From: an uncultured Candidatus Saccharibacteria bacterium
Lineage (GTDB): Bacteria > Patescibacteriota > Saccharimonadia > Saccharimonadales > Saccharimonadaceae
Assembly (NCBI GenBank): GCA_947307225.1
Contig: CAMZIL010000001.1
Coordinates: forward strand, 1 to 64,000
Direction of reading: 5' to 3'
DNA: 64,000 nt
In this document: piece after piece, positions 1,998 to 45,645 of the stretch
Numbering within the stretch: position 1 is the stretch's first letter
Layout of the letters: every line of letters starts with the position of its first letter
Made by a program: the position numbers and the translations under genes
Notes under the pieces: model-generated
Seen by the model: the letters and a program-made list of their open reading frames with translations, nothing else
Database searches by the model: none
What the model was told of the DNA's origin: nothing

Positions 1998-2648
1998 CTT
2001 GATTAGATAGATGGCGAATAAGTGCGCCGGAAAATAGAAATACGGAAGGAGCCGCGGCAAGCGGCGTCCTTTTTTGCCGGAATACAAAGCAATCGGGACG
2101 ATAGCCGCAATAGCCCAATATTGGATGTTCCAATTGTGATAGATCGCTAGCGATTGCATCATTGCAAATAGAACTAGGAGCTGCGCCGCGGCGCGCAGGA
2201 CTTTTTTGTCGGAAAACAGCAAATCCGCATAATAAAAGCCGACGATTAGAAAGACACCAAACACGCCATAATCGCAGTTTAAGGCGCTGGCGGCGAGGCC
2301 GAGAAGCGGGATGCCAATCATATAAAATCCGCCACGCTCAGCGCACATCAACGCAAGCAAGGCAAAGTCGAGCGTAAACAATACGTTATGCGAATAGCTC
2401 CCGCCAGTAAGGGCCGCAAGCGCAAAAGTCGGCAGCTGGGCCAGCAGGCCAAAAATCAGGAGGCGTGCAAAATAGCGCGGCCGTGAATGCGTATGTCTGA
2501 AACCTTCTAGTAGTAGCAACGCAAATAGCGGGAACGCCAAACGGCCAATAATACGGAGCGGCGCAAAATCTGGCACAAAATAAAGCCCAATATGATCAAT
2601 CGTCATAGCGACAATTGCAATGATTTGTAGGATTGCCGAGCTAAGCAT
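1983..2648 (-). CDS. TraX family membrane protein
   Basis: 221 residues, almost all hydrophobic, with roughly eight membrane segments. The N-terminal signature IIAIVAMTIDHIGLYF, then RIIGRLAFPLFALLLLEGF and HTHSR, is characteristic of TraX (PF05857). Plasmid TraX acetylates pilin in F conjugation; chromosomal homologues have unknown acceptors. The start is ATG 2646-2648, 6 bases after TATAAT (2655-2660), predicting a leaderless mRNA. The longer open frame to 2765 would run through the divergent promoter and is rejected. The divergent neighbour at 2746 shares this 100-base promoter region. Confidence 0.8.
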   Translation of the reverse strand: MLSSAILQIIAIVAMTIDHIGLYFVPDFAPLRIIGRLAFPLFALLLLEGFRHTHSRPRYFARLLIFGLLAQLPTFALAALTGGSYSHNVLFTLDFALLALMCAERGGFYMIGIPLLGLAASALNCDYGVFGVFLIVGFYYADLLFSDKKVLRAAAQLLVLFAMMQSLAIYHNWNIQYWAIAAIVPIALYSGKKGRRLPRLLPYFYFPAHLFAIYLIKLLLH

Positions 2649-2664
2649 ATTCCTATTATACCCC

Positions 2665-2693
2665 TTGACTTTTTGATCAAAGTGTGGTATAAT
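2665..2693 (+). promoter_or_regulatory. Strong promoter TTGACT-N17-TATAAT
   Basis: TTGACT (2665-2670), 17 bases, then TATAAT (2688-2693). The spacer ends CAAAGTGTGG and the initial transcribed bases read GGACTT. The same words recur in the promoter of the gene at 60109-60774. It drives the small membrane protein at 2746. Confidence 0.85.
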
Positions 2694-2745
2694 GGACTTA
2701 TACGTATTGCTGCCCCCAAAATCTACTTGCAAGGGAGGGTTGGAT

Positions 2746-3048
2746 ATGAACAACCATAAATACAAGCCAGCGTACAGCTACTTCCAAGAGTCGAAAAGTG
2801 AGCGCGTAAGACGCGAGAACGCCACATTATTACTGTGTCTTCTAGTTGCCCTCGGCGCAGTCCTCGTCTGTGCTCTCTTCTTGACCACTGCCATTACAGC
2901 CGCTTCGCCGATGATTTACTGGCCGCTCAAATTTATCTTTTGGGTAGCCGCTATCATCTGTATCGTTGGGTGGCCGGCATTCTTCGTTCGCGAGATTTAC
3001 GCGGCGGGACGGAGACAAAAAGAAAAACGCCGCGAAAGGGAGCCATGA
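2746..3048 (+). CDS. Small two-helix membrane protein of unknown function
   Basis: 100 residues with a charged N-terminus (about 1-25), two hydrophobic segments (about 28-50 and 58-80) and a basic tail ending RREREP. The start ATG 2746 is set by a strong ribosome site, GGGAGG, 9 bases upstream. The leader is about 45 bases. It belongs to a set of orphan genes in this window (also 32217, 47526, 60109) with TTGACT-N17-TGNTATAAT promoters and strong Shine-Dalgarno sites. The stop TGA lies inside the terminator hairpin. I do not recognise a family. Confidence 0.7.
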   Translation: MNNHKYKPAYSYFQESKSERVRRENATLLLCLLVALGAVLVCALFLTTAITAASPMIYWPLKFIFWVAAIICIVGWPAFFVREIYAAGRRQKEKRREREP

Positions 3049-42470: not shown

Positions 42471-43208
42471 ATGAGTATTATTAACGACGATCCAAACGCG
42501 CAGGCTGATGCCGACGCAGAGCGAGGCATTGCGCCAGTAATTGGTGGCACACCAAAACCAATTTCGGTACAAAAAATCGATAGCGACGACTCTCCGTCGA
42601 TGCCGAAGGGCGGCCTGAAACCGTTGCACGAGCATGATTTCCAGGTTGACGTTGACAAGGCACTTGCCGACGACACGCCAGGCACAGCATCTTTTGATGG
42701 TCCACGCGACAATAAATTCGTCGATTTTTCTGACTTCATCGAGGCTCCAATCGACGACACCCCAGAAGAAACAGAAACCAAGGAAGAAAAATCGATCAAT
42801 ATCGTAGACGAGACTCCAGAAGCAGAAAGCTTGATCGATGACGCCGAGGAACCGGCGGAAGAGCCAAAGGAAGAACCAAAAGCCGAGCCAAAGAACGACG
42901 GCGATCTCAAAATCGACCCAGAGCACGCCGTCGAAGAAGCAAATGAAGATTTCTTCCGCGCCCTCAACGAGAGAGTCGCAAAGCTCCGCCGCGAGCGTAA
43001 CGAATTAATCGTCCAGGCCGACAAAAAAGAGGACGAAATGACGATGATCGAGCGCTATAACTCCCAATATGACCTCCTTGGCGAGTTCGACAAAATCGAG
43101 CGTGACCGCGTCGAATCCCTCCGAAATGAGGTCCGCGACCTCCGTGAACAGTCCAAGAAAAAGGACCATTCCATCCGCTCCATCTTGAAAACTATTCGCA
43201 CAATGTAG
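42471..43208 (+). CDS. Acidic cytoplasmic protein with C-terminal coiled coil
   Basis: 245 residues from ATG 42471, set by GAGGGTGG. Residues 1-155 are disordered-looking and acidic (Asp, Glu, Pro, Ala); residues 160-240 are a heptad-rich coiled coil (LNERVAKLRRERNELIVQ, LGEFDKIERDRVESLRNEVRDLREQ). The promoter carries GCTTATGCTAAAAT. No signal or membrane segment. It may be a scaffold protein. The noncoding region follows directly. Confidence 0.6.
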   Translation: MSIINDDPNAQADADAERGIAPVIGGTPKPISVQKIDSDDSPSMPKGGLKPLHEHDFQVDVDKALADDTPGTASFDGPRDNKFVDFSDFIEAPIDDTPEETETKEEKSINIVDETPEAESLIDDAEEPAEEPKEEPKAEPKNDGDLKIDPEHAVEEANEDFFRALNERVAKLRRERNELIVQADKKEDEMTMIERYNSQYDLLGEFDKIERDRVESLRNEVRDLREQSKKKDHSIRSILKTIRTM

Positions 43209-43225
43209 CGATTTTAAGATTATTC

Positions 43226-43254
43226 TTGACTTTTTTGCAAAACTATGCTACAAT
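43226..43254 (+). promoter_or_regulatory. Promoter of candidate RNA 1
   Basis: TTGACT (43226-43231), 17 bases ending CTATGC, TACAAT (43249-43254). Transcription should start near 43261. Confidence 0.8.
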
Positions 43255-43260
43255 AATACT

Positions 43261-43541
43261 TACAGTCGGCGTTTTTGGTGCCGCCTGTCCTGTAGCATGG
43301 CTTGCGGAGGGCTTTTAATGGGGGCCCAATTACCCAATCCGCTAGCCCCATCTTTTCTTCCCCTGATACTCCTCGCCACGTTTTGTCATTGAACTAAAAG
43401 ATCCGTGAAAATAGAGGGGTGTACGTGGCCAACCCCGAGAGCTTGCGTACAGTATAAAAAAGAAAAAATAAAGAGTATCAGGCATAAAGTCCTGGCTTCC
43501 TTCCCGAGAATTTCGGGAAGGGGCTGGGCAATATTTTTTTT
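43261..43541 (+). ncRNA. Candidate structured RNA 1 (family not recognised)
   Basis: About 280 bases between a strong promoter and a strong terminator, with no credible reading frame. Predicted helices: a 5' hairpin with GGCG/CGCC; a long arm TGCGGA...TCCGCT (near 43303-43345); a 10-base closing helix CCTGATACTC (43362-43371) with GAGTATCAGG (43473-43482) enclosing GCCACG/CGTGGC; then the terminator stem. Diagnostic motifs of RNase P RNA (GGAAAGUCC), tmRNA (T-loop, tag frame) and SRP RNA (GGAAGGAAGC context) were looked for on this strand and not found. It could be an untypical member of one of these or a new RNA. Confidence 0.6.
43491..43541 (+). terminator. Terminator of candidate RNA 1
   Basis: A 15-base-pair stem with one bulged C (core CTTCCCG/CGGGAAG) is followed by CAATATTTTTTTTAT. 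Confidence 0.8.
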
Positions 43542-43547
43542 ATGTGA

Positions 43548-43860
43548 TACAATACAGATGTCGTGATGCACGCAACATTTTTTTCTCCTTCAGGGAAAGC
43601 ATCAGTTCGTGTGTCAACGACAAATGGAACCTTCTAAACCTGTTCCAAACAAGGCGGAAAAGCGGTCAACATATACCCCCGGCATAGCCGGATCAGACAC
43701 AATAAGCTATAGCACATCAAGCTAGTTGACAGAACATATAAACATATCGTTATCAATCCACAGATAGAAGTTTATTAACCCGCAGCTAAACCGCTTGCTG
43801 CTACGACCACTTTGTTTGGAACCACCCAAGGCCTCTTGCATAACAAGCAGAGGCCTTATT
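43548..43860 (+). ncRNA. Candidate structured RNA 2 (family not recognised)
   Basis: TGATACAAT (-10 at 43548-43553) should start an RNA near 43560, ending at the hairpin 43828-43857. Predicted: a 13-base-pair stem GTCGT-GATGCACG (43561-43573) with CGTGTGTCAACGAC (43607-43620, one bulge); GTTCCAAACAA (from 43641) pairing with TTGTTTGGAAC (to 43821), closing a domain of about 180 bases; inside it AAGCGGT/ACCGCTT, GTCAAC/GTTGAC and CCGGC-ATA-GCCGG. GTTCC can instead pair with GGAAC at 43627, so two folds compete. No known RNA class is recognised, and the transcript ends are predictions. Confidence 0.55.
43828..43860 (+). terminator. Hairpin at the end of candidate RNA 2
   Basis: AAGGCCTCT and AGAGGCCTT form a 9-base perfect stem extended by GC/GC. 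Only ATTAAAT follows, so termination may be weak or the hairpin may protect the 3' end. Confidence 0.5.
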
Positions 43861-43887
43861 AAATGAAAAATTGTTATAATAAAGATT

Positions 43888-45645
43888 ATGTTTAGAATTC
43901 TTCGGAACATGAGGCGCAAGGACGTCGCATTTCTACTCTGCGGCATTATTCTTGTTGCTTGCCAGGTCGGCTTTGAGCTAAAAATGCCCGACTACATGTC
44001 CGAGATTACGCGCCTCGTCCAAACGGAAGGTAGCAAAATGGGCGAGATTTTGCAGAATGGTGGCTGGATGCTCGCCTGTGCATTTTGTAGCTTTATCGCT
44101 ACAGTAGGTGGATGCTTCTGCTTTGCGACTGTTAGCGCACGTCTTTCGATGAATACGCGCAAAAAGCTCTTCGACAAAGTCGAGAGTCTGAGCATGCACG
44201 AGGTCAAAAAGTTTTCTACGAGCAGCTTAATCACCCGTTCGACCAACGATATCACGCAGATTCAAATGTTTGTTGCGATGGGGGCACAAATGCTAGTGCG
44301 CGCACCGCTCACGGCGACTTGGGCGATTTGCAAAATCGCAGGCAAGAGCTGGCAGTGGAGTACCGCGACCGGGATCGCCGTCGTTTTCCTTCTTTCCGTA
44401 ATGGCTATCGTGATGTCTATCGTGATTCCACGCTTCCGCATCGTACAGAAATTGACTGACCGCATCAACGGCGTCACGCGCGAAAACCTCACTGGCATTC
44501 GCGTCGTGCGTGCTTTTAATGCCGAAAAATACCAGGAAAATAAGTTCAGCAAAATCAACAGCAAGCTCACCGGCACGCAGCTCTTCAACGAACGCATGCT
44601 CTCAATTTTCTCGCCAACGATGTATTTCGTGATGAACGGCCTAACGGTCGTAATATACGTGATTGGCGCCTACCTAATTAATGGCGCCGCAGCCGGCGAC
44701 AAGCTCACGATTTTCAGCGATATGGTCGTGTTCTCTTCTTATGCAATTCACGTTATTATGAGCTTCTTGTTTGTGGCAATCACTTTGATGATTTTGCCAC
44801 GTGCACAAGTTTCAGCTAGCCGTATCAACGAAGTTCTAAAGACGAAAAATACCGTCGAGGATGGCAGCTTTGCTGACGCGACCGCTGAACGCGGCACGGT
44901 CGAATTTCGCAATGTTTCGTTCAAATACCCAGACGCAGAAGAATATCTACTGCGCAATATTTCATTCCGCGCCGAGCAGGGCGAGACGGTTGCATTTATT
45001 GGCTCGACCGGCTCCGGCAAGTCCACGCTCATTAATCTCGTTCCGCGTTTTTATGACGCAACGGATGGCGAAGTTTTCGTGGACGGCGTAAACGTTCGCG
45101 ATTACAAACAAAGCGAGCTCCACAACCGCATCGGCTACGTCCCGCAAAAGGCAGTTTTGTTCGACGGGACCGTTTCTAGCAACGTTTCCTACGGTGATAA
45201 TGGCCGCGGAAAAACCAGCGAAGAAGCCATCAAAAAGGCAATCAAAGTCGCTCAGGCAAAGTCCTTTGTTGAGAAGATGGACAAGAGCTATAACGCCCAT
45301 ATCGCCCAAGGCGGTACGAATGTTTCGGGTGGCCAAAAACAGCGCCTCGCGATTGCGCGCGCAATTGCACGTGACCCAGAAATATATATTTTCGACGATA
45401 GCTTTTCGGCGCTCGACTACAAGACCGACGCCGCACTACGCCACGAGCTCAAAAAACATACCGGCAACGCAACCAATCTCATTGTCGCGCAGCGCATCGG
45501 CACCATTATGCATGCCGACAAAATTATCGTGCTCGACGAAGGCGAATGTGTTGGCATGGGTACTCATAAAGAACTCATGAAGAACTGCAAAGTCTACAAA
45601 CAAATCGCGCTCTCGCAGCTAACAAAGGAGGAGCTCGATGTTTAA
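43888..45645 (+). CDS. ABC exporter half-transporter, degenerate catalytic site
   Basis: 585 residues: six membrane helices (about 17-310) and a nucleotide-binding domain with Walker A GSTGSGKST, signature NVSGGQKQR and Walker B IYIFDDSFSALD. The catalytic Glu after Walker B is Asp, as in the degenerate site of heterodimeric exporters such as TM287/288. Substrates range from lipids to drugs and peptides. TGTTATAAT (43875-43880) lies 7 bases before ATG 43888: leaderless. Overlaps its partner gene by 8 bases. Confidence 0.9.
   Translation: MFRILRNMRRKDVAFLLCGIILVACQVGFELKMPDYMSEITRLVQTEGSKMGEILQNGGWMLACAFCSFIATVGGCFCFATVSARLSMNTRKKLFDKVESLSMHEVKKFSTSSLITRSTNDITQIQMFVAMGAQMLVRAPLTATWAICKIAGKSWQWSTATGIAVVFLLSVMAIVMSIVIPRFRIVQKLTDRINGVTRENLTGIRVVRAFNAEKYQENKFSKINSKLTGTQLFNERMLSIFSPTMYFVMNGLTVVIYVIGAYLINGAAAGDKLTIFSDMVVFSSYAIHVIMSFLFVAITLMILPRAQVSASRINEVLKTKNTVEDGSFADATAERGTVEFRNVSFKYPDAEEYLLRNISFRAEQGETVAFIGSTGSGKSTLINLVPRFYDATDGEVFVDGVNVRDYKQSELHNRIGYVPQKAVLFDGTVSSNVSYGDNGRGKTSEEAIKKAIKVAQAKSFVEKMDKSYNAHIAQGGTNVSGGQKQRLAIARAIARDPEIYIFDDSFSALDYKTDAALRHELKKHTGNATNLIVAQRIGTIMHADKIIVLDEGECVGMGTHKELMKNCKVYKQIALSQLTKEELDV

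Follow-up and report, generated by a model that had tools for sequence, protein, structure and literature searches.

A lineage-restricted family of structured RNAs upstream of an ABC-transporter gene pair in Candidatus Saccharibacteria, with a candidate anti-Shine-Dalgarno linker

The DNA under study (the window, a stretch of 64,000 nucleotides) belongs to an assembly of 1.07 Mb that is 97.6% complete; the named relatives closest to it are Candidatus Saccharibacteria, for the most part from gut and rumen. At positions 43226-43541, upstream of an ABC-transporter gene pair, it contains a unit with about 280 nt of structured RNA, here termed RNA1. A second RNA cassette, RNA2, follows directly, and the ABC gene begins at 43888. 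The corresponding loci of relatives were reached via the ABC gene and are numbered from L040 onwards. Upstream of RNA1, positions 42471-43205 encode an acidic, coiled-coil-like protein of 245 aa with no Pfam match; L040 and L041 also have an ORF with its end at this place, and in L043, L045, L047 and L049 a minus-strand gene adjoins RNA1 on this side. The features of the region are as follows.

43226 to 43254, plus strand: promoter with -35 box TTGACT, 17-nt spacer and extended -10 box TGcTACAAT, read from the sequence and kept in syntenic relatives
43262 to 43288, plus strand: P1, a 5' hairpin (ACAGtCGGCG...CGCCtGT) of the MFE fold
43299 to 43347, plus strand: P2 domain, based on descriptor search, covariance model and pair counts
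43318 to 43392, plus strand: ATG frame of 24 codons with Shine-Dalgarno sequence GGAGG, reading MGAQLPNPLAPSFLPLILLATFCH, judged not to be conserved as a gene
43348 to 43361, plus strand: pyrimidine-rich linker of 14 nt, degenerate in the window (CCAUCUUUUCUUCC); in relatives UCCUUU(C)A, resembling an anti-Shine-Dalgarno sequence
43362 to 43371, plus strand: 5' arm of P3 (CCTGATACTC), the long-range closing helix
43473 to 43482, plus strand: 3' arm of P3 (GAGTATCAGG)
43489 to 43541, plus strand: intrinsic terminator, from sequence and fold, with an interrupted stem of 17 pairs (43489-43529) and a T-tract (43532-43541)
43548 to 43870, plus strand: RNA2, the next cassette, a structured RNA of about 300 nt extending to a GGCCTCT...AGAGGCC hairpin before the ABC gene, based on its fold energy and a same-position cassette in relatives

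The promoter of RNA1 matches the sigma-70 consensus at 10 of 12 bases and has the extended -10 TG in addition, in agreement with the near-consensus promoter described in the first-pass annotation. Promoters of the same type were found 51 times in the roughly 0.8 Mb of the genome that was scanned. In the nearest relative, L040, the promoter segment is the best conserved part of RNA1 (97% identity over 33 nt). The terminator is real as well, but its stem is not the clean one of 15 base pairs that had been claimed; it is interrupted, and a mechanical promoter-terminator scan did not pick it up.

In 5' to 3' order, RNA1 comprises P1, P2 with a conserved AUUACC/U, the linker, P3 around a variable domain (some 50-150 nt, a very rough figure), and the terminator. 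A 5' hairpin is also predicted in the homologues, with a sequence that differs from P1 of the window. P2 is built from an outer stem (GGCTtGCGGA/TCCGCtAGCC) around the hairpin GGGC(TTTTAATGGGG)GCCC, followed by AATTACCC; the helix noticed earlier at 43303-43345 corresponds to this domain. A pseudoknot of the P2 loop appears possible from the sequences, in the window between UGGG and CCCA and in most copies between GGG and ACCC. The folding energy of RNA1 taken alone is unremarkable (z = -1.72), and the case for RNA1 therefore rests on conservation.

A DNA search of 100 relatives returned nothing except the window itself, because the sequence of RNA1 has been rewritten although the unit stays in place. 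In order to follow the unit by position, we read by eye the eleven loci with ABC identity of at least 77% (the window and L040-L049). RNA1 is present at the same site in eight of them (the window, L040, L041, L042, L043, L045, L047 and L049), and other structured cassettes take its place in L044, L046 and L048. All carriers have kept the promoter, the P2 hairpin domain with AUUACC/U and the long-range helix P3, with the primary sequence largely rewritten. The comparison of the syntenic region that had been proposed as a check speaks for RNA1. Elsewhere in the genus, RNA1 was not found.

A structural descriptor of P2, consisting of an outer stem, a hairpin whose loop contains or adjoins GGG, and AUUACC/U, was written after the RNA1 sequences had been seen. 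It gave 11 matches in 1.38 Mb, both strands counted, and 7 of these were at the RNA1 site. A relaxed version, limited to the inner hairpin and AUUACC/U, gave 16 matches in about 0.8 of the 1.07 Mb of the window's own genome, RNA1 included; with the other 15 judged by eye in short context, RNA1 is likely present in a single copy. A covariance model trained on L040-L042 only and run with filters off matched four times outside the training set, three times at RNA1 sites (L014, from the genome of L043; L020, from that of L047; and L010, the window itself), each time weakly, at 10-11 bits. Among 45 whole genomes of the genus, the convincing matches of the model were the three training copies only, one copy each. 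R2 matches in G014 and G041 (about 17 bits), which lack the context of the RNA, were judged to be due to chance.

A plain MAFFT alignment of the whole RNAs was non-structural and unusable for covariation, and helices were therefore tested by position. For P3, dinucleotide shuffles served in each species as the background for the best helix with a 5' arm at most 50 nt after P2. The result was p <= 0.02 in six of the eight species, with a combined p of 7.6e-8 when species are treated as independent; the individual helices of L043 and L049 were not significant against shuffles. In the window, the helix of 10 base pairs had been recognized exactly in the first-pass annotation. Compared with shuffles anywhere in the RNA it is marginal (p = 0.047), and at its own position it reaches p = 0.0075. 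In the concatenated arms, each of the 17 examined pairs had changed at both positions, with as many as five pair types and a covariation score of 1.294 vs 0.257 in shuffles, for arms that were picked by eye, so that the pairing is 100% by construction. Of these comparisons, only the P2 descriptor, the covariance model and the P3 shuffles test against chance.

These data bear on the simplest alternative, namely that a chance promoter and terminator flank an unimportant intergenic stretch. The low z-score, the p-value of 0.047 for the window P3 alone and the empty DNA search of 100 relatives would all fit this explanation. However, eight species share the site, the promoter, the P2 motif and P3 despite the rewritten sequence, which makes coincidence very improbable.

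RNA1 had been described as having no reading frame. This is not correct to the letter, since the 24-aa ATG frame is present and has a good Shine-Dalgarno sequence; what holds is that the frame is not conserved. RNA1 might nevertheless be an mRNA, itself structured, that encodes a very short hydrophobic peptide (a small membrane peptide or type I toxin, for instance) and hides its start codon in the P2 loop. An AUG or GUG is indeed located in this loop in the window and in L040, L041, L042 and L043, in the window with GGAGG seven bases upstream, and the cassette at the RNA1 site in the distant relatives L057, L064 and L069 encodes short membrane peptides. Against this, the frame relative to the conserved AUUACC varies (0, 1, 2) across the five species, the lengths range from 17 to 43 aa, and the peptides have only their first residues, M-G, in common and do not align further on. 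No start codon was found in the P2 loop of L045, L047 and L049, and translated similarity is equal for the sense and antisense strands (32.0 vs 31.9). A conserved short hydrophobic peptide, as would be typical of type I toxins, was not found in the RNA1 homologues. We consider the peptide explanation improbable and treat RNA1 as non-coding, because the start shifts through all three frames, the peptides are unalignable and similarity does not differ between strands. In some species, a short peptide may still be encoded.

Known RNA families were also considered. For the window copy and the homologues tested, no Rfam 15 family scored above its gathering threshold, and searches with E up to 5 or 10 gave sub-threshold matches only, consistent with the initial view of an unassigned structured RNA framed by a promoter and a terminator of its own. 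Hallmarks of RNase P RNA, tmRNA and SRP RNA had been reported as absent, and the covariance models agree: RNase P RNA (RF00010), tmRNA (RF00023) and, at E up to 10, SRP RNA (RF00169, RF01854) had no match at the RNA1 site. The sole RNase P RNA copy of the genome is located at C4:52023-52368 (244.5 bits), and the tmRNA at C4:57839-58205. Neither SRP RNA model matched anywhere in this genome (G000), whose SRP RNA is either divergent or lies within the missing 2-3% of the assembly. That RNA1 itself is this SRP RNA in disguise is unlikely, because it does not match even at E up to 10 and was not found in other genus members. A match to 6S RNA (RF00013) was not detected at the RNA1 site even at E 10, and a survey of 21 genomes of the genus revealed no 6S RNA.

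The earlier suggestion of a housekeeping RNA in divergent form is not supported: RNase P RNA and tmRNA are found elsewhere, similarity to SRP or 6S RNA is missing at E 10, and RNA1 occurs only in part of a single genus and evolves rapidly in sequence, unlike housekeeping RNAs. The other suggestion, a new RNA class, is supported if taken modestly, as a new family. A limited search of open papers turned up no study devoted to structured non-coding RNAs in Saccharibacteria. With promoter, terminator and coding comparison taken together, RNA1 looks by its sequence like an independent transcription unit without a conserved protein, as expected of a trans-acting base-pairing sRNA. That it represents, in a clade of Saccharibacteria from gut and rumen, a genuine new, lineage-restricted family of structured sRNAs is well supported, and it is presumably expressed. 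The family is compact and open to testing, has covariation in its favour, and occupies a defined syntenic site in a genome that is reduced.

The -10 box of RNA2 (TGaTACAAT) adjoins the T-tract of RNA1, and the fold energy of RNA2 is far below chance (z = -6.66). L040, L041 and L042 have a counterpart with a long-range helix at the same position, differing in sequence. A separate -10 box serves the ABC gene, about 7 nt ahead of the ATG (TATAATaaagattATG); with the box directly before the start codon, the message of this gene is apparently leaderless. We also note that many -10-like boxes lie about 7-10 nt before start codons in the 367 ORFs of this genome that were examined (e.g. 43871-43890), which suggests widespread leaderless transcripts alongside Shine-Dalgarno-led ones.

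The position of the two RNAs raises the question of whether they act in cis, as a tandem of leaders (riboswitches or attenuators) governing read-through into the ABC operon. The unit lies immediately upstream of the operon in every carrier species, and both RNAs end in a terminator-like hairpin, as such leaders would. Each RNA has its own promoter, however, and so does the ABC gene, immediately before its start codon, which renders a leader function quite unlikely. Mutual pairing of RNA1 and RNA2 was tried as well and dropped, because cognate duplexes were no stronger than mismatched ones.

Different promoter-RNA-terminator cassettes occupy the RNA1 site in L046 and L048 (positions 2101-3000 in both), L051 and L059, and several of the alternative cassettes have UCCUUU and a long-range closing helix. 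In L053, L057, L064 and L069, the cassette just upstream of the ABC gene codes for a short membrane peptide with a single span (e.g. MKKRYIVIGVVAAVAALLYAIGFILADED...); in L057, what looks like an end-pairing helix, TTGCTAG/CTAGCAA, frames this cassette. Judged by its alternative RNA cassettes, the RNA1 site is a hotspot of structured RNA turnover, and RNA1 is best read as one cassette within a fast-evolving tandem RNA array.

The recurring UCCUUU suggests how RNA1 may act. The motif is present in seven of the eight RNA1 bodies, compared with 0.86 of eight expected from shuffles, and in four of eight other hotspot cassettes (among them L046, L048 and L051), compared with 0.72 expected. In six of the eight homologues it lies in the linker between P2 and P3, where the next base is C in five cases and A in one; in L043 it is found between P1 and P2. 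UCCUUU is complementary to the AAAGGA-type Shine-Dalgarno sequences of part of the genes; in the window's own genome, AGGAG lies upstream of 66 and AAGGA upstream of 60 of the 367 ORFs. A search for the 16S rRNA tail gave no match in 45 genomes, and the anti-Shine-Dalgarno identity of UCCUUU rests on Shine-Dalgarno usage, because the tail is unreadable in the assemblies.

We therefore propose, tentatively and with a probability of roughly 0.4, that RNA1 is an independently transcribed, non-coding structured sRNA that controls translation by pairing of a linker seed with Shine-Dalgarno sequences. The scaffold of P1, P2 and P3 would present the exposed linker, UCCUUU would pair in trans with AAAGGA-type sequences, and pairing would repress or adjust translation of the mRNAs led by them. 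The many genes that look leaderless would escape RNA1, and the variable domain enclosed by P3 could add target contacts. If this is true, an anti-Shine-Dalgarno RNA could separate leaderless from Shine-Dalgarno-led messages in a genome that mixes both. The inference of an antisense seed is weaker for the window species, because its linker has no UCCUUU but merely a degenerate pyrimidine run, so that the proposed seed is the least conserved element of this copy.

The missing seed of the window speaks for an alternative, in which RNA1 is a scaffold or protein-binding RNA instead of an antisense RNA and binds through P2. It could, for instance, act as a sponge, either for an RNA-binding protein or, as 6S RNA does, for RNA polymerase. 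The most conserved sequence within RNA1, AUUACC/U, is located in P2 and not in the linker, and since 6S RNA was not found in 21 genomes of the genus, its role could be vacant. Yet the fold of RNA1 is unlike the open-complex mimic of 6S RNA, other representatives of the genus were not found to carry RNA1, and a general polymerase regulator rarely turns over so rapidly. A scaffold function thus appears rather unlikely, and we retain the linker seed as the preferred reading. A broader version of it would make RNA1 and its neighbours an array of structured non-coding RNAs that diversifies rapidly at a single Saccharibacteria hotspot, a new superclass acting on ribosome-binding sites and possibly serving the epibiotic lifestyle. 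Its members would share a 5' hairpin, a variable domain closed by a long-range helix, the UCCUUUC motif and a terminator. This extension is speculative, and we regard it as unlikely.

Among known RNAs, RNase P RNA, tmRNA and SRP RNA resemble RNA1 in size, strong promoter and terminator, but the genes for RNase P RNA and tmRNA are on another contig, and none of the three has similarity to RNA1. Type I toxin-antitoxin RNAs have in common with it the structured character, the long-range pairing of the ends and, in the window copy, a short hydrophobic frame; unlike them, RNA1 has no conserved peptide. 6S RNA is likewise an independent, structured RNA of a few hundred nucleotides, but it forms one long hairpin with a central bubble, which RNA1 does not. 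For the proposed mechanism, the relevant comparison is with B11 of Mycobacterium abscessus, in which C-rich loops repress a target with a G-tract in its 5' UTR (PMC10470900), and with 6C of M. tuberculosis. Like these, RNA1 is intergenic and has an apparently exposed pyrimidine-rich stretch complementary to purine-rich 5' regions of mRNAs. In contrast to B11 and 6C, with which it has no known sequence relation, RNA1 is about 280-370 nt long, has the P2 domain and a long-range closing helix, and its family carries the UCCUUUC motif in a linker, where the mycobacterial RNAs have C-runs in hairpin loops.
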